Shown piece by piece: positions 3,689-64,000 of a stretch of 64,000 nt of DNA. The notes under the pieces were generated by a model, which saw only the letters and a program-made list of their open reading frames with translations, had not been told where the DNA came from and ran no database searches. Position numbers and translations under genes: made by a program. Each line of letters begins with the position of its first letter. The first letter of the stretch is position 1. The stretch is from Microlunatus elymi (lineage in GTDB: Bacteria; Actinomycetota; Actinomycetes; Propionibacteriales; Propionibacteriaceae): NCBI RefSeq assembly GCF_007362775.1, contig NZ_CP041692.1, positions 2,976,001-3,040,000 of the forward strand, written 5' to 3'.

Positions 3689-3770
3689 CCAAACACGCAT
3701 CCCAGTAAGAGAAAAACTGGCCCGGTTGCGGCATTGGTCACGGGTACTGTTTCGGCATGGAGGTGTCGAG

Positions 3771-6119: not shown

Positions 6120-7572
<1,453 letters not shown>

Positions 7573-8147: not shown

Positions 8148-8216
8148 GTGGGAGTGAAGCCAACTCGATCCAGCGGGCGCGACTCAGCTGCAGCCGATCC
8201 GCGAGCTCGAGCCCAG

Positions 8217-8320
8217 GGTCCTGAGCTTGCTCGAAGGACCGCGAACACAACCCCAGGGGTCCTGAGCTTGCTCGAAGTACGGCCAACGCAACCCCAGGGT
8301 CCTGAGCTTGTCGAAGGACC
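8217..8320. repeat. Three REP-like palindromes in tandem
   Basis: Copies lie at 8217-8240, 8258-8281 and 8298-8320, spaced about 41 bp. Each has outer arms GGTCCT and AAGGACC around GAGCTTG(C)TCG; the middle copy is degenerate at its right end. The same element occurs at 5873, 5929 and, in the opposite orientation, at 32874. A short open frame running through them is not credible as a gene. Confidence 0.8.
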
Positions 8321-8412
8321 GGCAACGCAAACCCAGGGGTTCTTGATCGAGGCGCGGGGGACCTGGGCCCGACGGCAGGTCGAGATCAAGTGTGTTGCTG
8401 ATCTTGGAATCG

Positions 8413-8853: not shown

Positions 8854-8982
8854 CGAGCCACCCCATGCTGATCCTTGGGCAAAGCTATCTCGGCACGAGG
8901 TCGGCGGCGCCAAATCAAGCAACGTGGAGTGGCCCGACACGCCGACGTCCTCGCGCCGACGTGTGGGCGCCCTGGGATAGGG

Positions 8983-9000
8983 TCCGAACGTCTGTTCGGA
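8983..9000 (+). promoter_or_regulatory. LexA (SOS) box upstream of ruvC
   Basis: TCCGAACGTCTGTTCGGA is an 18-bp perfect dyad around the core CGAAC-N4-GTTCG, matching the actinobacterial / Gram-positive LexA box. It sits 19 bases before the ruvC start and overlaps a TAGGGT sequence that could serve as -10. It should place ruvC-ruvA, and perhaps later genes, under DNA-damage control. Confidence 0.85.
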
Positions 9001-9018
9001 TCATCTTCAGGAGGCGTC

Positions 9019-9603
9019 GTGCGGGTCCTCGGAATCGACCCCGGCCTGACCCGGTGCGGGTTCGGCGTCGTCGACGGGGCGCCGGGCCACAGCCCGCAGT
9101 TGGTCGCCGTCGACGTCGTACGCACTGACGCCGGCACCGAGATCGCCTATCGACTGCTCCGGCTGGAACATGCCTTCGAGGACTGGATCACCGAGCACCG
9201 CCCGGACGTCGTCGCGGTCGAGCGCGTCTTCGCCCAGCACAACGTGCAGACCGTGATGGGGACCGCTCAGGCCGCCGGGGTGGCGATGTTGGTCGCGGCC
9301 CGGCACCAGCTTCCGGTCGCCCTGCACACGCCGAGCGAGGTGAAGGCGGCGATCACCGGCTCCGGTCGCGCGGACAAGGCCCAGGTCGGGCAGATGGTCA
9401 CCCGGATCCTCAGACTGGACGTGACGCCGAAGCCGGCCGACGCGGCCGACGCGCTGGCGCTGGCCATCTGCCACGTCTGGCGCGGCTCGGCCTCCGATCG
9501 CATCACCCGCGCCACTGCGGCCAGCGCCGAACAAGCTGCCCGGCAGCGCAGGGCGTACGCACTGGCCCGGCAGCAGTTGCCCGCACCGGGAGCACCGGCG
9601 TGA
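9019..9603 (+). CDS. ruvC: Holliday junction resolvase RuvC
   Basis: RuvC cuts Holliday junctions bound by RuvAB. The 194-residue product has the RNase H-like acidic set: Asp7 in LGIDPG, Glu69 in AVERVF, and Asp141/Asp144 in DAADALALA. The GTG start at 9019 has AGGAGG four to five bases upstream; a longer open frame upstream would run through the SOS box. Its stop overlaps the ruvA start (GTGA). yebC, usually before ruvC, is not adjacent here. Confidence 0.95.
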
Positions 9604-38109: not shown

Positions 38110-40863
38110 TCACAACAGGTGCAGGCCTCTCGCGATGCTCAGGGCCTCGCTGCGGCGGGAAGCACCGAGTTTGCCGTACAGGTTGGAGACGTGGGTCTTC
38201 ACCGTGTTCTCGGAGACGAACAGCTCGGCGCCGATGTCGGCGTAGGTGGCACCCCGGGCCAGCTCACGCAGCACGTCCCGTTCCCGGGCGCTGAGGGTGG
38301 GCCGGACCGGTACCTCGGTGGCGCTCGCCCGTTCCCGGGGGGTCGCGGTCCGCGATGCCGTCCGCACCGTCAGATCGGGTAGTCCGGCGAGGGCGTCGGC
38401 CAGTTCGTCGACCCACGGCAGCGACGTACGCTGCCGCAAGGCTGCGAGCAGGTCCTGCATCGGCGTGCCCTGACGACACCAGCCCATGAAGGGGAGTGCG
38501 TTGCGACGTACGGCCGTCTCGGTCGCCGCTCGGCGCAGCCACTCGAACGCCCGTTCCGATTCGCCCAGTTCGTCCAGCAGCTGGGCCGAACAGACCATCG
38601 CGATCGCCCGGGTGTTACGGGTCCCGGACGCCGAGTCGACACAGGTTTCGAAGGCGTCCACCGCGGCCCGCCGATCGCCGGCCAGGTCGGCGCGGAAGCC
38701 GCTCATCAGTGCGGCCTCGCCGTCCAACCCCAGCCCGCGGAGCTTCGACTCGCCCTGCCGGAGCCAATCGCCGTCGCCGGCCAAACAGGCCAGGCAGCCG
38801 CGCTCGATCAGGGTCACGGCGCGCAGATGCAGCGGCAGTTCGTCGGCTACCGGCAGTGGCAACGGTTGAGCGAGCAACTCCTCGGCCGCCGTCAGCGAGG
38901 TCGCTGAGGCACGAATCCTGGACTCGTAGATCCGGGCCCAGAACAAGGCGCACAGATCCGCCGGGTGCTGCCGTCCGAGCGGCGGTTCGCCGTCGACCGG
39001 ATCACGCAACCAGGCGACGTCGGCCGACCGAGCCAGTCGCACCGCGAGTGCCGCCCGGGTGGAGCTGACCTCGTCCGGTTGGTACGGATGATCCGCGTTG
39101 ATCTCGGCGGCCAGTTCGCCGCAGGTGTGTTCGCGACCCAGCATGTAGTGGGTGAGCGCCAGCATGCTCTTGGCCGCCGCCGTCAGCGGGAACAGCCGGC
39201 TGCTGGTGCGGCACAGCCCGATCGCCGCCGTCAGATTGAGCTCCGCCCGGTCCAGGTCACCGAGCCAGTTCTGGGTGGCCCCGAGTTCGATCAGTAGCAC
39301 GGCCAGTGACGCGGTCCGGGCAACGTCGTTGCGCTCGGCACCGGGTTCGATCCAGGACACCAGCTGCTGACCGGCGGCGACGGCCTGCTGCATCGATTCC
39401 AGCCCGAGCCGCGCGCGCATCAGCCGTGCCGAGGCCGTCTCCACAACGCCTGCCCGATCGGACGCTTCGGCGATGATGCGGTCCAGCCAGTGCCTGGCGG
39501 CATCGACGTCGCCGGCCGCCCAGCGCTCCAAGGCGATCGGGAACCAGGTCCGCGGATCGACGTCCACCAGCTCCGGATGGCGGCGGACGAACCGTGCGAT
39601 GGCCCGGCCCTGTCCGCAGGCCACCATGCTCACGCCGTCGGCCGCGAGCAGTTCGGCCGCCTGCTCGATCCGATTGATCAGCACCAGCCGCTCGAAGGCC
39701 CGGTCGGTGATGTCCCGGGCCAGATCGAGAGAGACCGCGCGGGCCACCGTGCCACGTGCCTGTTCCACGTCGACGCCGCCGACGGCCAGCCGACGGCGTA
39801 CGACCTCGGCCAGCAGCGGGTGGATCCGATACCAGGCGTTGTCCAGCGCGTCGTCCGAGGACGCGGCCGTGCCGGCCGGCCGGCTGACCCGGGTGACCAA
39901 CAATCCGTCGGCGGCCAGGTCGGCCATCAGTTCGCCGGCGCGCTGATCGCGCGACAGGTGGCACGCCGTCTCGCCGCTGACCAGCCGTTCACCGGCAACA
40001 CAGAGCAACAGATGCCGTTGACGCGTTGACAGCGAGGACAGCACCTCGCTGGCCGCACGATCGGCGAATCGGGCGTCGCCGCGGGCGAACTGGTGAGCTG
40101 CCTCGAGCGGATCGGGCATGGTCCGGACTGCGCGGGCAGCGAGTACGACCGCCGCACACCAGCCGTCGGCGCGACCGATGATCGCGCGGGCGACCTCGGC
40201 GTCGGAGGTGCCGGCATGCTGGCTGATCAAGGACGTCGCCTCGTCGTCGTTGAGCCGCAGCGCGTCGCCGCGCAGGATCGTCAGGTCGCCCATCAACTCC
40301 GGCACCAGGCTGGTCTGCAGCAGGTCCCACCGACTGAGCAACATGATGCGCAAGGAACCTGGGTCGCGATTGAGCCGATCCTCGATCAGCCGGACACCGG
40401 CCGACGGAAGCTTCTGCGCCTCGTCGATGACCACCAGGGTCGGTGGTTGATCCGATCGGGTCGCCGATCGCATCGCCACCGTCGAGATCTCGTCGGCGCC
40501 CTCGGTCTGCCGCAGACCGGCCAATCCGCGATCGATCACCGCTGCCAGTCGCTGCGGACCCCAGCTGAGCCCGCCGTCGATCCAGATGACCTGTGACGGA
40601 GCCCGCGAATCCTCCGCGACACCAGAATCCTCAACCGTTCCGAACCGGCGCCGGACCCAGCCGGCGACGCCCAGGGTCTTGCCGGATCCGCCCGGCGCGA
40701 CCAGCACGGTGACCGCGGACTCGCTTGCCCGGTCGAGTTGCTGCCAGAGGAAGTCGCGGGGCACATAGGCACGCGGCAGGCGCGGCGGCGTCCCCGGCTC
40801 CAGTCGGAGACTGTGGCTGAAATGTACCGAGTCCGCCCCGAGCGGGTCCGGGTCGAAAGTCAT
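38110..40863 (-). CDS. Large MalT-like LuxR-family regulator
   Basis: The 917-residue product has an N-terminal STAND ATPase with Walker A APGGSGKT (56-63) and a QVIWIDGG / PTLVVIDEAQKL Walker B region, a long helical TPR-like middle and a C-terminal LuxR HTH (LSARERDVLRELARGATYAD and ENTVKTHVSNLYGKLGASRR, about 853-905). It should act as an ATP- and ligand-dependent activator. ATG 40863 has GGGGGA eight bases upstream. It marks the left edge of the SulP block and has a counterpart, also minus strand, at the right edge. Confidence 0.88.
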   Translation of the reverse strand: MTFDPDPLGADSVHFSHSLRLEPGTPPRLPRAYVPRDFLWQQLDRASESAVTVLVAPGGSGKTLGVAGWVRRRFGTVEDSGVAEDSRAPSQVIWIDGGLSWGPQRLAAVIDRGLAGLRQTEGADEISTVAMRSATRSDQPPTLVVIDEAQKLPSAGVRLIEDRLNRDPGSLRIMLLSRWDLLQTSLVPELMGDLTILRGDALRLNDDEATSLISQHAGTSDAEVARAIIGRADGWCAAVVLAARAVRTMPDPLEAAHQFARGDARFADRAASEVLSSLSTRQRHLLLCVAGERLVSGETACHLSRDQRAGELMADLAADGLLVTRVSRPAGTAASSDDALDNAWYRIHPLLAEVVRRRLAVGGVDVEQARGTVARAVSLDLARDITDRAFERLVLINRIEQAAELLAADGVSMVACGQGRAIARFVRRHPELVDVDPRTWFPIALERWAAGDVDAARHWLDRIIAEASDRAGVVETASARLMRARLGLESMQQAVAAGQQLVSWIEPGAERNDVARTASLAVLLIELGATQNWLGDLDRAELNLTAAIGLCRTSSRLFPLTAAAKSMLALTHYMLGREHTCGELAAEINADHPYQPDEVSSTRAALAVRLARSADVAWLRDPVDGEPPLGRQHPADLCALFWARIYESRIRASATSLTAAEELLAQPLPLPVADELPLHLRAVTLIERGCLACLAGDGDWLRQGESKLRGLGLDGEAALMSGFRADLAGDRRAAVDAFETCVDSASGTRNTRAIAMVCSAQLLDELGESERAFEWLRRAATETAVRRNALPFMGWCRQGTPMQDLLAALRQRTSLPWVDELADALAGLPDLTVRTASRTATPRERASATEVPVRPTLSARERDVLRELARGATYADIGAELFVSENTVKTHVSNLYGKLGASRRSEALSIARGLHLL

Positions 40864-41115
40864 TCGGATTTCCCCCGTTTCATCGGGCCGCCGCATCAGA
40901 TCGTGCTGCCGGTAACGGGACAAGAGAATTGGCCACCAGGCGAGTCGACAGCCTGATCTGCATGGCCGGGGACATGGTTCAGACTATAAAGCAGGCGGCC
41001 CGGAATGGCTTGGGAGCCCGCTGCCTACGGCAAGACTCGAATCGTCCGTACTGGGTGAAAGTGCCCACGACATTTCTGTTTGTGTACGGGTATTTCGGCC
41101 CTTGCGCTGCAATGT
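40864..41115. other. Intergenic region between LuxR and SulP genes
   Basis: These 252 bases hold no convincing gene, RNA or terminator. A stretch at 41030-41052 with CTCGAAT vaguely recalls a tRNA T-loop, but no full tRNA fold could be built. Confidence 0.4.
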
Positions 41116-42909
41116 TTATCCTGCGTCGCGCTGTTGGTCCTCGGCCGCGGCGTCGGTCAGTTGCTGGGCCGGACCGCCCGCAGCGGCCAACCGGATCGCG
41201 GCGTCGACAGTGGGCACGACCAGGCCGCTGCGTTCGGTTTGGGTGAACCACTGCGACCGCGACATCGTCGCCCGGACTTGTGCCCCGAGGCCGGCCAGGA
41301 TCAGCGTGCTGCCGTCCCGTTCGAGATCCTCGGCGACATCACGGAGGATGTCCACCATCGGCACCGTGACGGCATGGACGGCCACGCACTCCAGCACCAC
41401 CCACCGGATGTCGTCCGAGGTCCGAGCAGCCCGCAGGATCGCATCGGCGGTGATCTGGGTGTTGCCGGCGTACAGCGCACCGTCGAGATGAAGCAGCACG
41501 ACCTCCGGCGGCACTCGCCTCTGATGATCATCCTCGGGCTGGTCGGGCGGCTCGGTGATCGTCCAGCCCCCGTTCGCGGCGGGATAGAGCGGCCGGACTC
41601 GGGCGCGGTTCACCTGACGCACCACCAGTGCCAGGGTGAGGATGACACCGACCGCGACCCCGAGCAGCATGCCGCCGGTCAGCCCGATCGCGCCGACCAC
41701 GATCGCCACCCACAACTCTGCCTTGTCGATGCGGGCGTACCGGAAGAAGTCGGCCGGACTGAGCAGCCCGATCACCGCCACGATCACCATCGCGGCCAGG
41801 ATCGCCTTGGGCAGATCGTCCAGCAGCGGCGCCAGGAACAACGCGACCAAGATCGCCAGCGCAGCGGTGATCAATTGGGCCAGCTGGGTGCGCGCGCCCG
41901 CCCGGAGATTGACCGCCGACTGGGAGAAGCCCCCGGCCGGTGGCAACGACTGCGTCAGCCCGCCGCCCAGCGAGGCCACCCCGGTGGCCGTCAACTCCTG
42001 GCCGACGTTGATCTGCGGCTCGTCGCGGCGCCGATTCGTGCGCGCGACCAGAACGGTCTCCATGAAGGCCATCACCGCAATGGCCATCGCGCCCGGCATC
42101 AGACTGACGACGTCTCCGGGCACCGGGATCGACGGCGTCGGCAGGCCTGTCGGTACGTGGTCGATCAGGATCAGGCCGTGTCCGTCGCTGCGGTCGGCGA
42201 TCGAGGTGGTGGCCACCAACAGGATGCCGGCCGCCACAACAACCAGCGGACCGGGCACCGTCGGTGCCAGCCGACGCAGCAGGAGCAGTACGGCGATGGC
42301 CGCCGCGGCGACCAGCACCGTGGTCAGGTCGGCCTGGGGCAGGTGATCGATCGCGTGGGCGACCTTGCCGAAGAAGCCGCTGTCGCTCGGCGGCGAGGCG
42401 ATGCCGAGCAGCGCCGGCAACTGACTGGCGGCCACCGTGAGCCCGACACCGACTCGGATGCCGGTCAGGGTGGCCGGGGAGATCATCTCGATCAGCGAAC
42501 CGAGCCGCAGCAGCCGCATCAACAGCAGGCAGATGCCCACCATGAAGGTCAGCGTGAACGCCGCCCGCTGCAGGTCCTCGGCCGAACGATGGGCCGCGTC
42601 CGGCAATCCGGCGATGGTGCTGGCGACCAGCACCGCGATGGTCGAGGTGGTGGAGACGCTGAGCGCCCGGGCGCCACCGAGCAGGGCGTAGATGATCATC
42701 GGCGCCATGCAGGTGTACAGACCGATCTGCACCGGCAGCCCGGCGATCGTGGAGTACGCCATGGCTTGCGGGATGACGACCGTTCCGGCCGCCAGGCCGC
42801 CGATCACGTCGCCGCGGAGCCAGCGCCTCTGGTAGCCCCGTACCGAGGGCAGAAGCCAGGACATCGGCGCCACGGACCGGGACACGGAACCGGTGTCAGG
42901 ATTGGCCAC
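41116..42909 (-). CDS. SulP-family anion permease with STAS domain (first of three)
   Basis: The 597-residue product has the SulP transport domain (GDVIGGLAAGTVVIPQAMAY at the start, about 12 helices) and a C-terminal STAS domain (PEVVLLHLDGALYAGNTQI..., about 465-570). SulP proteins move sulfate, bicarbonate or other anions; the substrate cannot be read from sequence. A perfect CTCACCCG-tct-CGGGTGAG palindrome lies 34 bases upstream of its start. Confidence 0.88.
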   Translation of the reverse strand: MANPDTGSVSRSVAPMSWLLPSVRGYQRRWLRGDVIGGLAAGTVVIPQAMAYSTIAGLPVQIGLYTCMAPMIIYALLGGARALSVSTTSTIAVLVASTIAGLPDAAHRSAEDLQRAAFTLTFMVGICLLLMRLLRLGSLIEMISPATLTGIRVGVGLTVAASQLPALLGIASPPSDSGFFGKVAHAIDHLPQADLTTVLVAAAAIAVLLLLRRLAPTVPGPLVVVAAGILLVATTSIADRSDGHGLILIDHVPTGLPTPSIPVPGDVVSLMPGAMAIAVMAFMETVLVARTNRRRDEPQINVGQELTATGVASLGGGLTQSLPPAGGFSQSAVNLRAGARTQLAQLITAALAILVALFLAPLLDDLPKAILAAMVIVAVIGLLSPADFFRYARIDKAELWVAIVVGAIGLTGGMLLGVAVGVILTLALVVRQVNRARVRPLYPAANGGWTITEPPDQPEDDHQRRVPPEVVLLHLDGALYAGNTQITADAILRAARTSDDIRWVVLECVAVHAVTVPMVDILRDVAEDLERDGSTLILAGLGAQVRATMSRSQWFTQTERSGLVVPTVDAAIRLAAAGGPAQQLTDAAAEDQQRDAG

Positions 42910-42942
42910 ACCTCAGCACACAGCATCGACCGGCTCGCCAAC

Positions 42943-42961
42943 CTCACCCGTCTCGGGTGAG
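42943..42961. promoter_or_regulatory. Palindromic operator site 1 (TCACCCG-N3-CGGGTGA)
   Basis: CTCACCCGTCTCGGGTGAG is a perfect dyad with 8-bp arms and a 3-base centre, 34-52 bases upstream of the minus-strand SulP gene start. Three other sites with the same 7-3-7 plan occur at 43944, 48749 and 48870. Confidence 0.65.
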
Positions 42962-42998
42962 ACCGCCGAAGAGGTACCAGGATCGGGCCGGAACGGCC

Positions 42999-43193
42999 TT
43001 ACTTCAGGAAGTGATCGAGCAGCTTCATGATCGCATAGGCGGCACCGCCGAAGACGCCGGCGACGACGGCCAAGGTGATGGCGATCGCGAGCAGCCCTTC
43101 AAGAGTGGTGACGGCTGCCCGCGGACCCGGACGATACCGGCGAGACTCCGGACGGAGTGGCTGCCCGTCATCGGTGCTCGAAACCTGTGACAT
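42999..43193 (-). CDS. Single-span membrane peptide
   Basis: The 64-residue product has a hydrophilic, Arg/Pro-rich N-terminal half and one membrane helix (LLAIAITLAVVAGVFGGAAYAIM, about 34-56). No family recognised. Its size and place between the DUF1269 and SulP genes on the same strand make it plausible, but coding evidence is limited. Confidence 0.55.
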   Translation of the reverse strand: MSQVSSTDDGQPLRPESRRYRPGPRAAVTTLEGLLAIAITLAVVAGVFGGAAYAIMKLLDHFLK

Positions 43194-43327
43194 CGCGAAT
43201 TACCCCTTCCTGGTCGTGGCCGCTTCGGTGTCTGCTACCGCACAGCTGATCTTGTCCCGGACTTCTGATCTTGGCCCGGCGTTGGCTCAACCGGATTCAG
43301 ACCAAGTCAATTGTTGCCGAAATGACA

Positions 43328-43361
43328 AGATCGCCGGCCGAGTTTCCTCGACCGGCGATCT
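43328..43361. terminator. Terminator hairpin after the DUF1269 gene
   Basis: AGATCGCCGG-C-CGAG (43328-43342) pairs with CTCG-A-CCGGCGATCT (43347-43361) around a four-base loop, with one mismatch. It lies 18 bases past the minus-strand stop and is followed there by TTGTCATTT. Confidence 0.7.
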
Positions 43362-43378
43362 CATCGTTCAGGGGCAAC

Positions 43379-43873
43379 TCAGTCCTGGAAGACCTGCCGC
43401 AGCGCGGCTTCCTGCTCGTCGCTCATGTTGGTGAAGATCAGGTCGGTCGGAGCATGTCCGGCGAAAGCGTCTTTCACCTTGTCCATCACGGCATCCGAGC
43501 TCATCACGAACAGCGCGGAGGTGCCGGGGGTGATCTGATCACGGACGCGATTGATGAAGCCGTCGTCGATGCCGACGTCGGTCAAGGCGCCGCTGAGTGC
43601 ACCGGTAGCGGCGCCGATCGCGGCACCCAACAGCGGTACAAAGAAGATCAACCCGAACAGCAGCCCCCAGAAGGTGCCGCCCAGTGCACCGGCACCCTTG
43701 GTCGAGTTGAGCTGCCGCGTCTTCGGCTTCTTGGCGCCCGGCTCCCAGGAGACGGTCGCCGCGTCGTGCAGGGTGATCAGGTTCTCCCGCGCGAGCTGCT
43801 TCAGGGTCTCCTCGGCCTGGTCGGCGCCCTCCGGCGTGTCGAACTTCCACGCGGTCAATGTGGCTTGTGCCAT
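43379..43873 (-). CDS. DUF1269 family membrane-associated protein
   Basis: The 164-residue product has an alpha/beta N-terminal domain (AQATLTAWKFDTPEGADQAEETL), a glycine-zipper hydrophobic stretch (about 62-95, WGLLFGLIFFVPLLGAAIGAA and ATGALSGAL) and a C-terminal domain (TSALFVMSSDAVMDKVKDAF). DUF1269 proteins are common in stress-related actinobacterial clusters; function is not established. Operator site 2 lies about 70 bases upstream, and a terminator follows. Confidence 0.85.
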   Translation of the reverse strand: MAQATLTAWKFDTPEGADQAEETLKQLARENLITLHDAATVSWEPGAKKPKTRQLNSTKGAGALGGTFWGLLFGLIFFVPLLGAAIGAATGALSGALTDVGIDDGFINRVRDQITPGTSALFVMSSDAVMDKVKDAFAGHAPTDLIFTNMSDEQEAALRQVFQD

Positions 43874-43943
43874 GGGTTCTCCCTCATTCGAACGAACATC
43901 GGACTGGAGGTCCCATCCTGACCAGCCAACCGCCGTAGGCGGG

Positions 43944-43960
43944 TCACCCGTTCTCGGTGA
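43944..43960. promoter_or_regulatory. Operator site 2, degenerate
   Basis: TCACCCG-ttc-TCGGTGA matches the 7-3-7 palindrome with two mismatches in the right half. It is about 71 bases upstream of the DUF1269 start. Confidence 0.5.
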
Positions 43961-44033
43961 ACCGACGTTCGGCCGACGCCGCCACTCAGGCTCAGGCTCA
44001 GGTTCGGGATCAGTCGGGCCGGGCTCGGCCGAT

Positions 44034-45710
44034 TCAGGACTTCGCGGTCAGCTCGCTGGCGTGCTTCCACGCGTCGTCGAGTGCACGGGTGACGTCCGCG
44101 CCCGCCGGGAACAGGTTGTCCGCGCCGATCCGCCGCTCCAGTCCGACCCGCCGGATCGCATCGACGACGCCCGAAGCGATGCCGGTCAGGATCAACGTGT
44201 TGCCGGTGTCGGCCAGTTGCTGGTGGTAATCGTCCAGGGCGCGCAGGCCGGTGTCCTCGATGGTGGGGATGTCGCGGATCCGCAGGATCACCACCGCGCC
44301 CGTCGCTCCGTCGGGCTGCGGCAGCCTGCGGGTCAGCCGCGGCACCTCGGCGAAGAAACGCCAGTGCGCCAGGTCGATGATCAGGATCTGACCCGAGGTC
44401 AGCTTGTCCGGGGAGTCGTGTTCGCTCCAGTAGCCGTCATCACTGCGTCTGAGCTCCTTCAGCGAGCCCGCCCGCGAGGAGGAGGCGATGAAGATCAACA
44501 GCGACAGCCCGGCGCCGAGGAAGATCGTCCACTGCAGCGGGATGAAGAGTGCGGCGGCGAAGGTCAGCACCATCGCCGCGGTGGATCCCCAGTTGCTGCG
44601 GAAGGCCAGCAGCGCATTGCCGGCCCGGCCGACGATGAGCTCGCCGGCGATGACGAACAGCAGCGCGGCGATCACCGACAGCGGAACCTTCTCGGCGACG
44701 CTGCCGAACAGCAGCACCATCACGCCCAGCCAGAGGGTGGCGAAGATGCCGCCCCAGCGGGACTTTGCGCCGCCGCCGACCGAGACACCGGTACGCGACA
44801 GCGAACCGCCGGTCGGCATCGACTGGAAGAACGAGCCCGCGATGTTGCCGAGGCCCTGGCCGATGAAGTCACGATTGGCCGAGGCCCGGGATCCGTCCGG
44901 GTTGGGGTAGGCGGAGCTGATCCCGGCGCCCTGGACCAGCGCCACGATCGCGACCGATAGCGAACCCAACGCCAGCTCCGGCACGTCACCGAAGGCGGGC
45001 AGGTCGGGATGAGGCAGCCCGCTGGGGATCTTGGCGATGTCGGCGACCGTGGCCACCGACTTCAGCTGCAACACTGCGACAGCCACCGTCATGATCACCA
45101 GCACGATCACCGGGGCGAGTTTGGCGACCGGTTTGATGCGTTTGCCGATCAGCATCAGCGCCATGGTGATCAGCGCGATCAAGGTGGTGGTGAGATCCCA
45201 GTCGCCGATGTGGGCGAACCAGTTCACCAGCTCGCTGATCTTGTTCGAGCCCTTCGGGTCGTAGCCGGAGAAGTCGCCGATCTCGCCGATGATGATCAAC
45301 ACGGCGGCACCGGCGACGAAGCCGGTCATCACCGCGTTGGAGACGAAACTGACCAGGCTGCCCAGCCGCAACAGCCCGAGGACGAACATGATCGCGCCGG
45401 TCAGCAACGTGATCGTGAAGAGTGCGCCGGGCATGTCGCCCTTGTCGATGCCGGCCACCTGCAGGACGCTGCCGGTCGACAGCGCGATCGCGCTGGTCAG
45501 CGTGGACACCATCAGCACCGTGCCGGTGCTCAGCGAAGCCACCAGCGTCGCGACCAGGCCCGAGTACAGGCCGTACAGCGGGTTCACCCCGGCCAACTGC
45601 GCGTACGCCATCCCCTCGGGGATCGAGAACACGCCGGTGACGAATCCGGCCATCGCGCCGGAGGCGATGGTGTTCGGTTCCAACCCGTTGATCGGCACGC
45701 GTTTCAGCAC
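44034..45710 (-). CDS. SulP-family anion permease with STAS domain (second of three)
   Basis: The 558-residue product starts IASGAMAGFVTGVFSIPEGMAYAQLAGV, has the SulP helices with PTGGSLSRTGVSVGGGAKSR, and a C-terminal STAS domain (ILIIDLAHWRFFAEVPRL and VVILRIRDIPTIEDTGL) to residue 540. Substrate unknown. It differs strongly from the first copy and resembles the third more in overall plan. No 7-3-7 operator was found just upstream. Confidence 0.88.
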   Translation of the reverse strand: MLKRVPINGLEPNTIASGAMAGFVTGVFSIPEGMAYAQLAGVNPLYGLYSGLVATLVASLSTGTVLMVSTLTSAIALSTGSVLQVAGIDKGDMPGALFTITLLTGAIMFVLGLLRLGSLVSFVSNAVMTGFVAGAAVLIIIGEIGDFSGYDPKGSNKISELVNWFAHIGDWDLTTTLIALITMALMLIGKRIKPVAKLAPVIVLVIMTVAVAVLQLKSVATVADIAKIPSGLPHPDLPAFGDVPELALGSLSVAIVALVQGAGISSAYPNPDGSRASANRDFIGQGLGNIAGSFFQSMPTGGSLSRTGVSVGGGAKSRWGGIFATLWLGVMVLLFGSVAEKVPLSVIAALLFVIAGELIVGRAGNALLAFRSNWGSTAAMVLTFAAALFIPLQWTIFLGAGLSLLIFIASSSRAGSLKELRRSDDGYWSEHDSPDKLTSGQILIIDLAHWRFFAEVPRLTRRLPQPDGATGAVVILRIRDIPTIEDTGLRALDDYHQQLADTGNTLILTGIASGVVDAIRRVGLERRIGADNLFPAGADVTRALDDAWKHASELTAKS

Positions 45711-45788
45711 GGCGGCGACGCTAACATGATGGACTCCCGGCGGGCTGGCACAAATCGGGGGATGCCGTGATCAGCTCGGTCACTGCTG

Positions 45789-46364
45789 TCACTCCTTGAC
45801 GGCGGCCTTCTGGTTCTTGCGGCGCGAGGTCTGGTACTGCACGCCGTGGCCGATCACCGTCAGCACGATCCAGCCGACGGCCAGGATGATCGCGCCGAGG
45901 GCGGACTCCGGCCGCCACAGGTTGCGGAAGAAGTCGGGCCCGATCCGGCCCAGACCGGACAGCACCAACGCGGCGCCGGCGAAGGCGGTGGCCCAGCGCA
46001 GGAAACGGCGCCGCCAGTGGTTGGCGAGGAAGCCGCCGATCAGCCCGGCGATCGGCACCACGATCACCGCCAGCAGCCAGCCGGAGCCGGGGCCGTTGAA
46101 CAGGACGAAGGCCTTGGCACCGATGATCGCGCCGGCGCAGACGCCGCCGATGAAGAACAGGAAGTGGGTCATCAGCATCGTGCAGATCAGAGCCGCCGCG
46201 GCGCCGGCGCAGGCGACGACGACGGTCCAGGTCGAGCTGGCACCGAGCGCGTCGGCGAGCAGCCAGGCGGCACCGAAGCCGGCCAGTGCGATTCCCAGCC
46301 GGATCGAGACGACGCCGAAGAAGCACAGCGCCAGACCGATGACCAGCAACACGATTCCCGACAT
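45789..46364 (-). CDS. DUF4203-like multi-pass membrane protein
   Basis: The 191-residue product has about six helices (GIVLLVIGLALCFFGVVSIRL, WTVVVACAGAAAALICTMLM, FLFFIGGVCAGAIIGAKAF, LLAVIVVPIAGLIGGFLAN and others) and a basic tail (QTSRRKNQKAAVKE). The spacing of helices and Gly-rich faces resembles DUF4203 / TM7SF3-like proteins. ATG 46364 with AAAGAG upstream is preferred over a longer frame that lacks signal features. Function unknown. Confidence 0.7.
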   Translation of the reverse strand: MSGIVLLVIGLALCFFGVVSIRLGIALAGFGAAWLLADALGASSTWTVVVACAGAAAALICTMLMTHFLFFIGGVCAGAIIGAKAFVLFNGPGSGWLLAVIVVPIAGLIGGFLANHWRRRFLRWATAFAGAALVLSGLGRIGPDFFRNLWRPESALGAIILAVGWIVLTVIGHGVQYQTSRRKNQKAAVKE

Positions 46365-46555
46365 CTGAACTCTTTCGACGTGACGGACAGCAGTGATGCA
46401 CACCGCGCAGCGCCAGCATTCGTGCCGTGGCGCCGCGCCGCTTCGCCCGATTCCGGTGAGGGCGGCGAGGTACGCCGAACCGTAGCGTGATTCTGAGCCG
46501 GTGTTGAGATCCGGCCGAGGTTGATCTTGCGCGAGTCGAGTCCTGGGAGGAACGA

Positions 46556-47227
46556 ATGGGTCAGGCCATCGGGGACATCCTGCCGATCGCACTGGGTGTG
46601 GCGATCTCACCGATGCCGATCATGGCGGTGATCTTGATGCTGATGTCTCCGCGCGGCCGGGGAGCATCGGTCACCTTCCTGCTCGGCTGGGTGCTCGGCA
46701 TCGCCGTGGTGCTGACCGTGGTCACGTTGGTGATCGGCCCGGCCAGCGGTTCCGATTCGTCCGGGCCGTCTCCGGTGGCGTCGATCATCAAGATCGTTCT
46801 TGGTGTGCTCGCGTTGTTCCTGGCGTTTCGGCAGTGGCGCGGCCGGCCGAAACCCGGTCAGACACCGCAGTTGCCGAAGTGGATGGCTGCCATCGACAAG
46901 GTGACGCCGGCCAAGGCGTTCGGCCTGGGCGCGTTGCTGTCCGGGATCAACCCGAAGAACCTGACCCTGTGTCTGGCCGGCGGGGTCGCAATCGGATCGG
47001 TCGGTCTGGATGCCGGCCAGGCTGCCGTCGTGATCGTGATCTTCGTGCTGATCGGCAGTTGCACGGTGGCGATCCCGGTGATCGCGTTTCTGGCCGCGCA
47101 GAAGGCGGTCCAGCCGAAACTGGACGAGTTGCGCGGCTGGCTGGGCGCTCACAACGCCGCGGTGATGTCGGTGCTGCTGTTGGTGATCGGAGTCACCATC
47201 ATCGGCAAGGGCGTAGCGGGGCTGTGA
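46556..47227 (+). CDS. GAP-family (Sap / LysE-like) membrane protein
   Basis: The 223-residue product has six helices beginning DILPIALGVAISPMPIMAVILMLMS, the pattern GVAxSPxPI with GINPKNLTLCLAGG (about 135-148), which matches the GAP (GPL-addressing / sulfolipid-addressing) family related to LysE exporters. It may export small molecules or lipids; the substrate is unknown. ATG 46556 follows GGGAGGAACGA. Confidence 0.82.
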   Translation: MGQAIGDILPIALGVAISPMPIMAVILMLMSPRGRGASVTFLLGWVLGIAVVLTVVTLVIGPASGSDSSGPSPVASIIKIVLGVLALFLAFRQWRGRPKPGQTPQLPKWMAAIDKVTPAKAFGLGALLSGINPKNLTLCLAGGVAIGSVGLDAGQAAVVIVIFVLIGSCTVAIPVIAFLAAQKAVQPKLDELRGWLGAHNAAVMSVLLLVIGVTIIGKGVAGL

Positions 47228-47303
47228 TGGCCAGACCGGAATGGAAGCGGTACGGCGGGCCGACGACGCAGAGTCGGCCCCGAAAGTGAGGCAGGTGTAG
47301 GTC

Positions 47304-47510
47304 ATGTCGAAGATGCTGATCCGCGTCGACGCAGAGCTGACCGACGAACTGGCCGGCGCGTACCCGTACCTGACCGCCAGGCATCAACGCGCATCGACGA
47401 CGCTGACCGGCGATGTTGCCGACCAACAGGAGCTGCAGGGACTGCTGTCGCTGTTGAACTCGCTGGGCATCTCGGTGCTCGAGGTGGTCACCATCCCCGA
47501 CGACGACTAG
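47304..47510 (+). CDS. Small protein of unknown function
   Basis: The 68-residue product (MSKMLIRVDAELTDELAGAY ...) has a beta-alpha-beta-like pattern, ending in LLSLLNSLGISVLEVVTIPD, which is suggestive of a compact ACT- or BON-like fold, though not enough to assign. ATG 47304 follows AGGTGTAGG. Its last four bases overlap the convergent AI-2E exporter gene. Confidence 0.65.
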   Translation: MSKMLIRVDAELTDELAGAYPYLTARHQRASTTLTGDVADQQELQGLLSLLNSLGISVLEVVTIPDDD

Positions 47511-48649
47511 CCGTCGACCGCCCCGCGGCCGTCTTCAGCCTCCGTCGTCTCGGTCTCCGTACCGGCATCGGCCCGGCCACTGGCCGACTTCGCCTTCTTT
47601 CCCTCGGAGTTGGCCACCAGCGGCACCATCCACTTCGCGTCCGGGTCGGCGTCGACCAGGATCGCCCGGACCAGCAGGCTGAGCGGAATGGCCAGGATGG
47701 CGCCGATCGGACCGAGCACCCAGGCCCAGAAGATCAAGGACAGGAAGGTCAGCGTGGTGGACAGGCCGACCGCGTCCCCGACCACCTTCGGTTGGATCAC
47801 CGACTGAATGATCACGTTGATCACGCAGTAGACGATGACCACGGCGAGCATCAGACCGGGTCCGCCGGCCAGCAGGCCCAGGATCGCCGGCGGGACCAAC
47901 CCGATCACGAAGCCGACGTTCGGGATGTAGTTGGTGAGAAAGGCCAGCAGGCCCCACAACAGCGGAGCCGGGATGTCCATCACCAGCAGGGCAATGGTGT
48001 CGATCACCGCGACGATCGCGCCGAAGATCGTGGACACCAGCAGATAACGGTTGGAGGCGCGGGCAAAGTTCAGCAGCGCGTTGATGATCGTCGGCCGGGT
48101 ACCGGCCGCGCGCACCATGTGCCGGGGGAACGACGAACCGTCCACGGTCATGAACAGCAGCAGCGTGATGATGAAGACCAGGTTGGACACCACTCCCAGC
48201 ACACCGGACAGCGCCGAGGTGAGGATCTTGGTCAGCTTGGACAGATCCAACTGCGCGGTCACCGCGTGGAGTTGATCTTCCTTGATTCCCAGCGCGGCCA
48301 GTTGATCGCTGAGTTGTCCGACCAGGTTGTCGAACTGATCTTCGTACTGTGGCAGCAGGCCGGCGAACTGGGCCGCCGAGACGAACATCAGGGACGCCAG
48401 GCCGAGGATGCCGAGATAGACGACGATCAGGCAGATCAGGGTCGCCAGCCACGGCGGGATGTGTCGGGCCAGCACCCGTTGCAGCGGGTGCACCGCGATG
48501 GTCAGAACCAGGGTCAGGAACACCACGCTGAGGATGTCGGCGGCGCCCTTCATGCCGGCCACGATGACCACCGCGGCGGCGAGTCCGAGGAGCACCAGCA
48601 GCCCGCGTGGCATCGACCGGGCCGGGCGCGGCGAGACGACTTCGGACAT
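47507..48649 (-). CDS. AI-2E family transporter
   Basis: The 380-residue product has about eight helices with the family blocks AADILSVVFLTLVLTIAVHPLQ and NYIPNVGFVIGLVPPAILGLL followed by IQSVIQPKVVGDAVGLS. The AI-2E/PerM family covers exporters of autoinducer-like and other solutes. An acidic C-terminal tail follows. Operator site 3 is a perfect 19-bp palindrome 99 bases upstream of its start. Confidence 0.88.
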   Translation of the reverse strand: MSEVVSPRPARSMPRGLLVLLGLAAAVVIVAGMKGAADILSVVFLTLVLTIAVHPLQRVLARHIPPWLATLICLIVVYLGILGLASLMFVSAAQFAGLLPQYEDQFDNLVGQLSDQLAALGIKEDQLHAVTAQLDLSKLTKILTSALSGVLGVVSNLVFIITLLLFMTVDGSSFPRHMVRAAGTRPTIINALLNFARASNRYLLVSTIFGAIVAVIDTIALLVMDIPAPLLWGLLAFLTNYIPNVGFVIGLVPPAILGLLAGGPGLMLAVVIVYCVINVIIQSVIQPKVVGDAVGLSTTLTFLSLIFWAWVLGPIGAILAIPLSLLVRAILVDADPDAKWMVPLVANSEGKKAKSASGRADAGTETETTEAEDGRGAVDG

Positions 48650-48747
48650 GTGGACTGCCTTCCTGTACGACGATCAAGGCCCACGACGATTCAGGACGTA
48701 CGACGGATCAGCGCCCTCGTAGGCTTTCAGCGCCAGCAACTCAACGA

Positions 48748-48766
48748 GTCACCCGAGTCGGGTGAC
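48748..48766. promoter_or_regulatory. Operator site 3, perfect 19-bp palindrome
   Basis: GTCACCCGAGTCGGGTGAC has 9-bp arms around a single G, equal to the TCACCCG-N3-CGGGTGA plan. It lies in the 296-bp divergent gap between the AI-2E gene (99 bases upstream of its start) and the DUF6325 gene. Confidence 0.7.
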
Positions 48767-48869
48767 CCGGCAGCCGTTGACGATACTGTGCGAGCCAGGA
48801 CCGTCGTGGGACGGTCGTCCGGGTGTCCGGTTTCAGTCGCTGAATCCGGATTCGAGCAGGCATGCGGCA

Positions 48870-48886
48870 TCACCCGAACAGGGTGA
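48870..48886. promoter_or_regulatory. Operator site 4
   Basis: TCACCCG-aac-AGGGTGA matches the 7-3-7 plan with one mismatch and lies 60 bases upstream of the DUF6325 start, where a promoter would be expected. Confidence 0.65.
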
Positions 48887-48945
48887 GGACATCGCTCTCG
48901 GATGGCTGAAAGGCTCGGACTCTGACAGACAGTGAAGGGAGCCAG

Positions 48946-49392
48946 ATGAGTGCAGTAGCGGCACCGATCGGACCTGTGGACGTGGCGGTCGTGGTGTTTC
49001 CCGAGGCAGAACTCAGCGAGAAAGTGACTGCCGCGGTCGCCGACGCCATCGCGTCGGGTGCTGTACGCCTGCTGGATGCGCTGATCGTGCAGAAGAGCAC
49101 GGACGGCGAGGTCACCATCATCGATGTTGACGACGAAGGCGACATCTTCGCCGTCCTGCCCGTACCCGGTGATCACCAAGGGTTGCTCAGCGAAGCCGAC
49201 GCCAACGAGGTCGGCGACGGCCTGGAGCCGGGTTCGTCGGCAGTCGTCGTCGCCTGGGAGAACATGTGGGCGGTTCGGCTGCGCAGCGCGATCTTCGAGG
49301 CTGGCGGCGTGATCGTCGCTCACGAGCGCATTGCCGACGACAGCATCGAGGCGGCGTACGCCGCGCTGGACACCGCCGAGGAAGGGAACTGA
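48946..49392 (+). CDS. DUF6325 family protein (DUF1269-like)
   Basis: The 148-residue product (GPVDVAVVVFPEAELSEKVTAAVADAIASGAVRLLDALIVQK...) is typical of the small acidic DUF6325 family, usually found before a SHOCT-domain gene, as here. ATG 48946 follows GAAGGGAG seven bases upstream. Function unknown; frequent association with stress-type clusters is family knowledge. Confidence 0.82.
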   Translation: MSAVAAPIGPVDVAVVVFPEAELSEKVTAAVADAIASGAVRLLDALIVQKSTDGEVTIIDVDDEGDIFAVLPVPGDHQGLLSEADANEVGDGLEPGSSAVVVAWENMWAVRLRSAIFEAGGVIVAHERIADDSIEAAYAALDTAEEGN

Positions 49393-49394
49393 TC

Positions 49395-49757
49395 ATGCTT
49401 GCACGTCGATTCGGACGACCCGGACTGGTCGGCCTTGCTGCTCGTACGGCGGTCGTCGCCGGCACAGCCAGTGCGGTCTCCGGCGGGATGGCACGGCACC
49501 AGCAGCAGCGGGCGGCCGAGCAGCAGGAGATGCAGGCCTACGAGCAGCAGCAGCAGCAGGCTCAGATGATGGCCGCGGCTCAGGCCGCGCAGCAGCAGGC
49601 TGCGGTGCAGGCGGCACCGGTGGCACCCGCCGCCCAGCAGTCGGTCTCGGTGGACGACACGGTCACCCAGCTGGAGCGGCTGGCGGCGCTGAAGGAACAG
49701 GGGATCCTGACTGACGCGGAATTCGCCGCGCAGAAGGCCAAGATCCTGGGCGCGTGA
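49395..49757 (+). CDS. SHOCT-domain protein with Gln/Ala-rich linker
   Basis: The 120-residue product has a short hydrophobic N-terminus (VGLAARTAVVAGTASAVSGG), a Gln/Ala-rich linker (about 33-80) and a C-terminal SHOCT motif (QLERLAALKEQGILTDAEF followed by AAQKAKILGA). SHOCT modules are thought to serve in oligomer formation. It begins two bases after the DUF6325 stop, so the two are probably co-translated. Confidence 0.88.
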   Translation: MLARRFGRPGLVGLAARTAVVAGTASAVSGGMARHQQQRAAEQQEMQAYEQQQQQAQMMAAAQAAQQQAAVQAAPVAPAAQQSVSVDDTVTQLERLAALKEQGILTDAEFAAQKAKILGA

Positions 49758-49761
49758 TCCG

Positions 49762-51171
49762 ATGGTGCCTGAGTCGCCGACCACCGACGAACTGAGATCG
49801 AGGATTGCCCAGCTCGAGGCCGAGAACCGACAGCTGCGGGATCAGGGTGCGCCGCCCGTGCCGCCGCAGCCGTCGGCGGTCCGTCCCGGGCCGCGGCGCG
49901 GTCGGGGCTGGACGGTGTTGTCGGTGTGTCTGATCGTGATCGGGTGCATTCTGGCGCCGTTGTCGGTGGTCACCGTCTGGGCCAAGGCGACCCTGGTCGA
50001 CACCGACCAGTTCGTGGCCACGTACGCACCGCTGGCGCAGAACCGGGCCGTGCAGGACTACGTCATCGACCAGTCGATGGTGGCGATCAACAACAACGTC
50101 GACATCGACCAACTGACCAAGGACCTGATCGACGGGATCAAGCAGCTCGGCACCGGACCGCGCGCCAACACCGCACTGGATGCCCTGCAGGGTGCGGCCG
50201 CGCGCGGGATGGAGAGCCTGATCCAGAGCGGCGTGACCCAGTTCGTCCGCTCGGACGCCTTTGCGGCGGCCTGGGAGGACGCCCTGCGGATCAGTCACAC
50301 CCAGATCATGGCCACCCTGAGCGATGATCCGAACGCGATCCTGAAGGCGCAGCAGAACGGCACCATCGGCATCCAACTCGGTCCCATCATCGACAAGATC
50401 AAGCAGGCGTTGATCGACAAGGGCATCGGCATCGCCTCGAGGATTCCGTCGGTGAACAAGACGATTCCGATCGCTCAGGCCGATCAGATTTCCAACGTCC
50501 AGGCCGGCTACCGGGCGGTGATCGCGCTGGGCACCTGGCTGCCGTGGGTGTGCCTGCTGTTCCTGGTCGCCGGGGTGGTGGTGGCTCGCCGACGGGTCCG
50601 GACGCTGACCGCAACCGGCGTCGGCTTCGCCATCGCGATGGCGGTGCTGCTGCTCGGCTTCGTGATCGGCCGGGCGATCCTGAAGACCGCGGTGCCGCCC
50701 TCGTTGGCGCCGGCCAACGTGACCGATCTGATGTACAACACCGCCACGGCCGCGATGCGCAGTACTGCCGTGGCCGGGCTGGTGCTCGGCATCGCGGTGG
50801 CACTGGTGGCCTGGTTCGCCGGTCCCTTCCGCAGTTCGACCCGGATCCGGGGCGCGTACGGCAGTGGAGTTGATCATGTCCGGCGGAGTGCCGAGCAGCG
50901 TGGTGTCAGCACCGGCAAGGTGGGTGTGTGGATCTACAACCAACGCTTGTTGATCAGGATCGTGATCGCCCTCGCGGTGGCCGCGATCATCATCCTGAAT
51001 CGGCCGCTGGCGGTATCCACCATCGTGATCACCGGCGTGGTGGCGATCGTGGTGTTGATCATCCTCAGCTTCGTCGAACGTCCGCCGAGTTCGGTCGCGG
51101 CATCGGCACCGACTCCGGTGGACATCGACGACGACCACGAGCCGACCGTCAGCCTGCCGCCGCAAGCGTGA
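49762..51171 (+). CDS. Membrane protein of unknown function with large extracytoplasmic domain
   Basis: The 469-residue product starts with a short coiled coil (RSRIAQLEAENRQLRD), a proline-rich linker and a helix (about 50-72), followed by an extracytoplasmic domain to about 250 and about five further helices (LPWVCLLFLVAGVVVA, GVGFAIAMAVLLLGFVIG and others). It continues the DUF6325-SHOCT unit (4-base gap) and overlaps the third SulP gene by four bases, so all four genes form one operon. Confidence 0.8.
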   Translation: MVPESPTTDELRSRIAQLEAENRQLRDQGAPPVPPQPSAVRPGPRRGRGWTVLSVCLIVIGCILAPLSVVTVWAKATLVDTDQFVATYAPLAQNRAVQDYVIDQSMVAINNNVDIDQLTKDLIDGIKQLGTGPRANTALDALQGAAARGMESLIQSGVTQFVRSDAFAAAWEDALRISHTQIMATLSDDPNAILKAQQNGTIGIQLGPIIDKIKQALIDKGIGIASRIPSVNKTIPIAQADQISNVQAGYRAVIALGTWLPWVCLLFLVAGVVVARRRVRTLTATGVGFAIAMAVLLLGFVIGRAILKTAVPPSLAPANVTDLMYNTATAAMRSTAVAGLVLGIAVALVAWFAGPFRSSTRIRGAYGSGVDHVRRSAEQRGVSTGKVGVWIYNQRLLIRIVIALAVAAIIILNRPLAVSTIVITGVVAIVVLIILSFVERPPSSVAASAPTPVDIDDDHEPTVSLPPQA

Positions 51172-52943
51172 TCAACCTGCGGCCGGTCCGCGGCTGGCTG
51201 TCGTGGTTTTCCCTGCGTACGTGGAAGAAGGACGTGCCGGCGGGGTTGGTCCTGGGCATCGAGAGCGTACCGGACGGCCTGGCCCAGGGGTTGCTGGCCG
51301 GGGTGAATCCGGTCTTCGGTCTGTACGGCTACGTCTTCGGCACCATCTTCGGCGCACTGGCAACCAGTTCGGCGTTCATGACGATCCAGGCCACCGGCGC
51401 GATGTCGGTGGTCGTGTCGGACGTCACCCAGGTGCACGGCAACTCCGAGGACGCGCATCGGGCGCTGTTCACGCTCACGCTGCTGACCGGTTTGATCATG
51501 CTCGGCCTGGGCATCGCCCGGCTCGGCTGGATCGTCCGCTGGGTGCCCAATGCCGTGCTGACCGGATTCGTCAACGCGGTCGCGGTGAACATCGTGCTCG
51601 GCCAGCTGGACAACCTGACCGGCTACGACAGCTCCGGCGCCAACCGGTTGCTGAAGGCGCTGGATTCGGTCATCCACCTGCCCGGCTGGTCCTGGCCCGA
51701 CGTCGCCGTCGGCGTGCTGACCATGATCATCATCGTGGCCACCGGCCGGACCCGGATCGGCGCGTTGGGCATGGTGCTGGCCATCGTCGTCGGCTCCGCG
51801 GTCGCTGCCGTCCCCGGCATGAAGGTGCATCAGCTGCAGGACATCACCGACGTGCCGGCCGGGTTGCCGGCCCCGGTGCTGCCGGACCTCGGCGCGGTGC
51901 CGGCGTTGATCGTGCCGGCTGTCGCGCTCGCCTTCGTCGGGTTGGTCCAGGGCGCGGCGATCAGCCGGTCGGTGCCGAACCCGGACGGGAGCTATCCCGA
52001 TCCGTCCGGCGACTTCCGCGGGCAGGGGATCGCCAACATCGCCACCGGTCTGCTGCAAGGGATGCCGGTCGGCGGGTCGATGTCGGCGACGGCGATCATC
52101 ACCAACTCCGGTGCCCGCAGCCGGATCGCCCAGCTGGTCGCCGGCGTCACCATGATCATCGTGATCGTCACCCTGAGCGGCCTGGTCGGCTACGTGGCCA
52201 TGCCGGCGCTGGCCGGATTGCTGATCGTGGTCGGGGTGCAGACGCTGAAACCGCATCAGGTGCTGATGGTCTGGCGAACCGGCGCCGTCCAGGCCAGCGT
52301 GATGGCGGCCACCTTCATCCTGACCCTGGTGATTCCGCTGCAGTACGCGGTGCTGGCCGGGATCGCGATCTCGATCATCCTGCACGTGGCACAGCAGTCG
52401 AACCGGGTTGCCGTACGCCGTTGGTCGATCACCGACGACGGCGCCATCGAGGAGACCGAACCGCCGGCGACCCTCGGTGTCGACGAGGTCGTCGTGCTGC
52501 GCCCGTACGGCAGTCTCTTCTTCGCCTCGGCGGGGACGTTCGAGGACGCGTTGCCGGGGATCGATCCGGCGTCGCACAACTCGGTGGTGATCATCACCCT
52601 GCGGGGCAAGGAAGATCTCGGCAGCACGTTCATCAACGTGATCACCCGGTACGCGACCCGACTCGCCGACGCGGGCTGCCTGCTCAAGATCAGCGGGACT
52701 TCGGAGTCGGTCCGCCGGCAGCTGGTGTCGACCCGGGCGATCAGCACCCTCGGCCCGGCCAACGTGTACGCGATGACGTCAACACTGACCGAATCGACGA
52801 TGGCTGCCAAGCACGATGCCGCGGAGTGGATCAACGGCAACATCGAGCCGGCGGCAGAGGAGTCGGCCGAGCACGGCGGGGGACCAGGATGGTTCCACGA
52901 CGCCGTCCGCTGGGGCAAGGTCCACCTGCTCCGTCGGCACTGA
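51168..52943 (+). CDS. SulP-family anion permease with STAS domain (third of three)
   Basis: The 591-residue product starts from GTG 51168 inside the previous stop (GTGA). It shows KKDVPAGLVLGIESVPDGLA, about ten to twelve helices with GMPVGGSMSATAIITNSGARSR, and a C-terminal STAS-like domain (DEVVVLRPYGSLFFASAGTF, about 440-555). Substrate unknown. It lies at the end of the DUF6325-SHOCT-membrane protein operon controlled, by position, through operator site 4. Confidence 0.88.
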   Translation: MINLRPVRGWLSWFSLRTWKKDVPAGLVLGIESVPDGLAQGLLAGVNPVFGLYGYVFGTIFGALATSSAFMTIQATGAMSVVVSDVTQVHGNSEDAHRALFTLTLLTGLIMLGLGIARLGWIVRWVPNAVLTGFVNAVAVNIVLGQLDNLTGYDSSGANRLLKALDSVIHLPGWSWPDVAVGVLTMIIIVATGRTRIGALGMVLAIVVGSAVAAVPGMKVHQLQDITDVPAGLPAPVLPDLGAVPALIVPAVALAFVGLVQGAAISRSVPNPDGSYPDPSGDFRGQGIANIATGLLQGMPVGGSMSATAIITNSGARSRIAQLVAGVTMIIVIVTLSGLVGYVAMPALAGLLIVVGVQTLKPHQVLMVWRTGAVQASVMAATFILTLVIPLQYAVLAGIAISIILHVAQQSNRVAVRRWSITDDGAIEETEPPATLGVDEVVVLRPYGSLFFASAGTFEDALPGIDPASHNSVVIITLRGKEDLGSTFINVITRYATRLADAGCLLKISGTSESVRRQLVSTRAISTLGPANVYAMTSTLTESTMAAKHDAAEWINGNIEPAAEESAEHGGGPGWFHDAVRWGKVHLLRRH

Positions 52944-63905: not shown

Positions 63906-64000
63906 ACACACTCCGTTCATCGGTACGATGCCTCACCGCCGCACCCCGTTGCCGCGGTAATTCTGTAGCTTTGCGTTGTTGGTGTGTTCAGTCAAGCTCA

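Follow-up and report, generated by a model that had tools for sequence, protein, structure and literature searches.

What do the copies of the palindrome TCACCCG-N3-CGGGTGA that precede several genes in a stretch of the Microlunatus elymi genome control, and what protein reads them? The stretch, hereafter the window, comprises 64,000 nucleotides (contig NZ_CP041692.1, positions 2,976,001 to 3,040,000), and an earlier note on it had proposed that four such palindromes, in front of genes for transporters and small proteins without assigned function, define an undescribed regulon. Comparison with other genomes strongly supports the view that the four palindromes are real control sites, belonging to a regulon that recurs in many actinobacteria; this regulon is probably switched on by large ATP-binding LuxR proteins (LALs) resembling MalT, as judged by analogy with a described system. 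The palindromes (boxes) of the window are the following, the offset being the distance after the box at which a −10-like element starts:

42944..42960, minus strand: SulP-1 box, TCACCCGTCTCGGGTGA, 0 mismatches; −10-like element at 42920-42915, offset 24
43944..43960, minus strand: DUF1269 box, 2 mismatches; −10-like element at 43920-43915, offset 24
46443..46459, no single strand: fifth box, TCGCCCGATTCCGGTGA, 2 mismatches; between the divergent genes for TM198 (minus) and SfLAP (plus)
48749..48765, minus strand: box of the AI-2E family transporter, 0 mismatches; −10-like element at 48726-48721, offset 23
48870..48886, plus strand: box of the DUF6325-SHOCT-SulP-3 gene row, 1 mismatch; −10-like element at 48910-48915, offset 24
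41042..41058, minus strand: weak, out-of-register copy with 3 mismatches; the LAL start at 40863 lies 178 bp downstream

For the four sites originally put forward, the coordinates and the mismatch counts (0, 2, 0 and 1) are as claimed, and so are the 8-bp arms of the box at 42944 and the 19-bp palindrome in which the box at 48749 is embedded. Two of the four reported gaps between box and start codon, 34 bases for 42944 and 99 for 48749, agree with our count, and the other two come to 70 (43944) and 59 (48870) instead of 71 and 60. The statement that the window holds no equally good copy overlooked the fifth box, which has two mismatches. When up to three mismatches are allowed, the 7-3-7 pattern matches the window 9 times against 9.76 expected by chance, and the signal is therefore carried solely by the better copies.

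Alignment of the sites gives the core box TCAYCC-N5-GGRTGA, with C or T at position 4. The common palindrome perceived in the earlier note thus stands, but since positions 7 and 11 are variable it is better written as 6-5-6 than as the 7-3-7 plan proposed there. The specificity of the spacer was assessed in the best 80 of 503 actinobacterial loci (1,503,889 bases), which were obtained from an alignment of 12 DUF1269 proteins, span Promicromonospora, Aeromicrobium, Nocardioides, Pseudonocardia, Geodermatophilus, Rhodococcus and others, and include near-duplicates such as L322 and L323. In these loci the exact box occurs 117 times with a spacer of 5, whereas each of the other spacers between 0 and 11 yields 0–3 copies, and it lies at most 300 bp upstream of 21 of the 80 DUF1269 genes, none of which has the half-sites there at any other spacer. 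Permutations that move just the Y yield 85, 67 and 66 copies, nearly as many as the box itself, as expected. Both half-sites read TCACCC/GGGTGA in 66 of the exact boxes versus TCATCC/GGATGA in 12. The median distance to the gene start is 78 bp, and 110 of the 117 boxes are intergenic in sequence that is 88% coding; the numerous intragenic matches at chance frequency that the earlier note had named as grounds for abandoning the regulon were thus not seen in the relatives.

Nor did the sites lack conservation, the other such ground, as judged from the relatives that keep the genes concerned. Within the order, DUF6325 is encoded by 28 of the 147 genomes, and 15 of the 30 DUF6325 loci fetched have the 7-3-7 palindrome at no more than two mismatches within 250 bp upstream, whereas 149 permuted half-sites average 0.06 and never exceed 3, and spacers 0–8 other than 3 give 0–2. 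Close relatives of the DUF1269 gene have the box, at the same stringency, in 12 of 30 cases (100 permutations: mean 0.11, maximum 3). These order-level loci include several from one genus and are not independent. At the level of the class, an exact copy is found at most 300 bp upstream in 9 of 30 DUF6325 loci (60 permutations: mean 0.3); permutations that shift the Y alone again come close to the box. Among 296 genomes of the class, DUF6325 is encoded in 21 of the 22 that have at least 8 exact boxes versus 78 of 296 overall, a comparison uncorrected for kinship; 57 of these 78 carriers of DUF6325 fall short of 8 boxes.

A further property of the boxes is their position relative to the putative promoter. 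We assembled 268 non-redundant intergenic site-to-gene sequences from the genome itself, the islands of relatives and the 80 loci, oriented towards the gene and chosen for an exact box or a weight-matrix score of at least 20 and a gene start 35–250 bp away. A TAnnnT element starts at offset 23 in 10 of them and at offset 24 in 18, and at any other offset in no more than 2. When at least two of T1, A2 and T6 are required, offset 23 accounts for 122 sequences and offset 24 for 96, against 2–24 for the other 47 offsets between 1 and 49. Altogether, a −10-like element is found at offset 23 or 24 in 214 of the 268, and other adjacent pairs of offsets reach 7–41. This fixed register makes the boxes resemble sites at which an activator covers the −35 position. 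The five main sites of the window are all in register: the box at 48749 only towards AI-2E and out of register towards DUF6325, the box at 48870 only towards DUF6325 and out of register towards AI-2E, and the box at 46443 in both directions, with TAGCGT at 46483-46488 for SfLAP and an element at 46420-46415 for TM198. For SulP-1, the predicted transcription start would fall at about 42909-42910 and coincide with the GTG start codon. Upstream conservation, intergenic placement and the register together lend strong support to the shared regulon suggested by the four original promoters.

Does the regulon extend beyond the window? The whole genome (5.12 Mb, one contig) contains 5 perfect and 5 one-mismatch copies of the 7-3-7 pattern, and 76 copies with at most two mismatches versus 11 for the reversed control pattern. 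Eight of the ten best copies are intergenic and upstream of a gene, the genes behind them being those for SulP-1, AI-2E, DUF6325, two sulfatases, a second SfLAP, BrkB/YihY and an HtrA-DUF308(HdeD) pair. The other two are intragenic, at 3280930 and, as a perfect copy, at 2443376 in a gene recognised by eye as dprA. Weaker promoter copies precede a second DUF1269 gene, third and fourth sulfatase genes, and a LURP-one gene followed by a DUF6325-like protein (identified by eye; no Pfam match). Some of the sites used to train the weight matrix come from this genome, so that the score bands for its own sites, which assume 12% noncoding sequence, are partly circular; the count of 8 in 10 and the exact-pattern tests are free of this circularity. 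Of 16 chosen site-gene pairs, 13 are in register, including those of SulP-1, DUF1269, SfLAP, AI-2E and DUF6325 in the window, and three (sulfatase 4, DUF1254 and the window LAL) are out of register; among four further pairs judged by eye, TM198 and HAD are in register and two are not. The part of the site list examined for register covers 50 of 64 places, up to 3.55 Mb. With 23 intergenic sites read in both directions, 19 of 36 site-gene directions are in register and 17 sites have at least one gene so placed, those with none being 700619, 710603, 1100988, 1661000, 3017042 and 3325089.

Several of the sites outside the window are of separate interest. At 3041021 and 3041114 (L139) two boxes 76 bp apart lie between divergent genes for a HAD-like protein and a sulfatase, each box in register with one of the two. 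The region 3162001-3180000 (L207) has TCATCC-type boxes at 3165444 and 3174411 and represents a further regulon cluster with the letters of the Actinoplanes type described below; the box at 3174411 is in register upstream of a cydA-looking gene, and a glucoamylase-like gene, a G6PDH-like gene and a LAL-like fragment are nearby (all by eye). At 4838700-4839400 (L054, L138) there is a second DUF6325-SHOCT pair, with a near box upstream whose spacer is seemingly one base longer (CACCCGGCTCGGGGTG) and a LAL-like gene also upstream. DUF1254/DUF1214 proteins are found behind a box in two unrelated genomes (L193 658-1974, L342 8300-9676); the DUF1254 box of the present genome is just 13 bp from the start.

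The genes around the boxes, identified by Pfam matches, are as follows:

38110..40896, minus strand: LAL (MalT-like) LuxR protein with C-terminal GerE, the first candidate activator; relatives lie near DUF1269
41116..42909, minus strand: SulP-1 (Sulfate_transp, STAS)
43379..43873, minus strand: DUF1269 protein
45789..46364, minus strand: TM7S3/TM198-like membrane protein
46556..47227, plus strand: SfLAP (Sap) membrane protein
47507..48649, minus strand: AI-2E family transporter
48946..49392, plus strand: DUF6325 protein
49395..49757, plus strand: SHOCT protein
51168..52943, plus strand: SulP-3 (Sulfate_transp, STAS), last gene of the DUF6325 row
52957..55629, minus strand: second LAL protein (TPR_MalT, AAA_16, GerE), a paralogous candidate; an 897-bit relative lies beside DUF1269 in L264

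Most of these families reappear behind boxes elsewhere. Among 136 distinct genes downstream of boxes in the 80 loci, DUF1269 is found 19 times, SulP 14, AI-2E 8, DUF7144 8, SfLAP 6, GerE 5, DUF6325, SHOCT and PLDc_N 4 each, and sulfatase, DUF308 and TM198 3 each. The 131 other genes of the same loci contain the same families, mostly at lower frequency (SulP 6, DUF7144 5, GerE 5, DUF6325 3), and AI-2E and SfLAP are not among their 25 commonest families. Because the loci are themselves clusters of regulon genes, this census discriminates just partly.

A protein of 66–73 amino acids, of one recognisable kind by eye, adjoins SfLAP in most islands inspected (window 47304-47510, plus strand, without a Pfam match; L142 13133-13336; L145 10058-10261; L148 6517-6717; L213 3717-3938; L214 2413-2634), and several copies share a conserved C-terminal tail resembling VVEVVTIP. 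SulP transporters are accompanied in or near the regulons by sulfatases, a formylglycine-generating enzyme and an alkyl sulfatase (L150 946-1872, L339 17602-19494, L140 6647-8989, L139 1247-3568, L137 10523-12022, L189 60-1514), a hint of organosulfate use. Beyond the second LAL gene, the window encodes a surface-like protein of 2724 amino acids (55746-63920, minus strand), in which DUF5979 occurs eight times alongside DUF7601, DUF11 and a weak match to an LPXTG anchor.

Is such a regulon already on record? A region of 51 genes in Actinoplanes sp. SE50/110 is activated by MalT (ACSP50_3915), a LAL/LuxR protein: malT deletion lowered 42 of the genes and overexpression raised 39, with no maltose gene reported there as affected; the palindrome TCATCC-5nt-GGATGA is present upstream of 17 transcription starts, which lie 34.4 ± 1.0 nt from the 3' end of the repeat (PMC7567727, 2020). 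The box described here is likewise a 6-5-6 inverted repeat with the same letters except at position 4. In both systems the box overlaps the −35 position about 34 nt from the start, as deduced here from predicted −10 elements, and LAL/LuxR genes are in the cluster (PMC7567727). As regards maltose in our own data, none of the window targets is a maltose gene and no mal family is among the 25 commonest downstream families (GH15/TREH_N, 4), which is the outcome of a census and not of a direct search. An arginine deiminase-OTC-carbamate kinase set is part of the Actinoplanes region (PMC7567727), and such a set stands beside a box and DUF6325 in L149; there, at 3283-9331, the three genes follow a P-type ATPase-like gene facing away from the DUF6325 box. 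Unlike in Actinoplanes, the half-site is here mostly TCACCC and the sites are scattered over several genome regions. The targets here include SulP, sulfatases, DUF1269 and AI-2E, whereas the main text of PMC7567727 contains none of the terms "SulP", "sulfatase", "sulfate" and "DUF". The word "undescribed" was thus too strong, because a near-identical, MalT-controlled box with the same promoter geometry was reported for Actinoplanes in 2020. The present system is probably a TCACCC-rich, taxonomically wide member of that MalT-type regulon; new are its TCACCC form, its wide spread and, as judged against the main text of PMC7567727, the targets SulP, sulfatases and DUF1269. The resemblance to the Escherichia coli namesake is more distant. 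With E. coli MalT, whose box is GGGGA(T/G)GAGG (as cited in PMC7567727), the system shares the LAL/STAND regulator family, a half-site (GGRTGA(GG) compared with GGATGAGG) and a position near −35, but in E. coli the repeats are arranged differently and the regulator serves maltose genes.

By this analogy, the sites are likely to be operators of an activator of the MalT kind, presumably the LAL encoded at 38110-40896 or one of its paralogues. Two LAL genes are present in the window and a third, at about 2.89 Mb of the genome, adjoins the BrkB box. Homologues of the 38110-40896 protein scoring at least 85 bits are found in 29 of the 147 genomes of the order, in 22 of which one lies within 3 kb of a DUF1269-type gene; a LAL of at least 600 amino acids is present in 48 of the 69 loci with at least 15 kb around DUF1269, and 24 of 30 LAL loci have a site with a matrix score of at least 16, compared with 0–4 for 12 permuted matrices. 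The GerE recognition region of the LALs resembles that of E. coli MalT, such helices being common in LuxR proteins. Eight distinct LAL promoters were inspected (L159 repeats L260), and four, two in Aeromicrobium massiliense and one each in Nocardioides guangzhouensis and N. sediminis, contain a box in register with a full TAnnnT. The two flanking LuxR proteins remain candidates, as originally proposed, though no longer by position only: a conserved neighbourhood, promoter geometry and the Actinoplanes precedent now point to them.

A number of observations weigh against assigning the boxes to the LALs. Three of the eight LAL promoters (L286, L338, L183) have an upstream box that is out of register and one has none; the window LAL is preceded just by the weak, out-of-register copy at 41042-41058, which leaves its autoregulation unsupported. 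SfLAP promoters of relatives have the box in only 2 of 30 cases at up to two mismatches and in 7 of 30 at up to three (permutation mean 0.8, maximum 9), so that conservation is weak at this member of the regulon. In the long DUF1269 loci, the number of boxes shows no association with whether the same 20-kb stretch encodes a LAL (Fisher p = 0.79, Mann-Whitney p = 0.41), a result at odds with a simple local rule. GerE, as seen in the census, is equally frequent among genes with and without a box, and since these genomes also encode GerE proteins other than LALs, the GerE helix alone is not diagnostic.

The last two observations would also be expected if another dimeric regulator, encoded elsewhere, bound the box and the LAL genes were mere members or neighbours of the regulon. 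We regard this as unlikely: the same box at the same distance from the start depends on a LAL in Actinoplanes (PMC7567727), and GerE is the sole family of DNA-binding regulators among the 25 commonest in both censuses (71 and 153 families matched; sigma-70 region 4 models, which overlap GerE, were set aside). More improbable still is binding by an orphan response regulator of the NarL/FixJ family such as BldM of Streptomyces venezuelae, an actinobacterial activator with a LuxR-type DNA-binding domain whose Group I box, TCACcCgnncGgGTGA, has the identical half-site TCACCCG (PMC4125116). The BldM box has a spacer of 2 and not 3, and TCACCCG/CGGGTGA pairs are separated by N3 in 25 cases versus N2 in 2 in the 80 loci, and in 2 versus 0 in the window; moreover, the BldM targets described in PMC4125116 are developmental genes. 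BldM is also of another protein type than the LAL candidates here. That the palindromes reflect chance or codon bias in a genome rich in G+C, as the chance-level count at three mismatches and the perfect copy inside a gene might suggest, has a negligible probability, having already been refuted for the good copies by spacer specificity, intergenic placement, conservation and the fixed −10 register.

In the mechanism that we favour, control by LALs of the MalT kind, the large ATP-binding (LAL/STAND) LuxR protein would occupy the TCAYCC-N5-GGRTGA repeat across the −35 position, while RNA polymerase would use the −10 element starting 23 or 24 nt beyond the box. The regulon would encompass genes of the envelope, transport and sulfur metabolism: SulP, AI-2E, SfLAP, TM198, DUF1269, DUF6325-SHOCT, sulfatases, BrkB/YihY and HtrA-HdeD. 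The box, its spacer, conservation, intergenic placement and −10 register, and the nearby LAL genes, are computed directly; we infer from them binding by these particular LALs, activation as the sign of control and a possible role in membrane stress or organosulfate use. A broader scenario, to which we give even chances, is that across the class paralogous MalT-like STAND regulators control an old envelope and organosulfate regulon whose gene order has been shuffled and whose TCACCC-type boxes keep a strict −35 register. Such a regulon would unite SulP, aryl- and alkyl-sulfatases with the formylglycine-generating enzyme and small membrane proteins (DUF1269, DUF6325, SHOCT, DUF7144, HdeD), its regulator would control its own gene in some genera, and the actinobacterial proteins would not usually be concerned with maltose.

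These results extend to many genera a regulon previously on record for one region of Actinoplanes and for four relatives, and they provide a promoter geometry that can be scanned for in any actinobacterial genome. Families without assigned function (DUF1269, DUF6325, the SHOCT partners, DUF7144) gain a common operator and a candidate class of regulator, and the signal sensed by the LAL proteins becomes a directly testable question. More generally, poorly known membrane and sulfur genes of these bacteria acquire a shared candidate regulator that can be put to the test.

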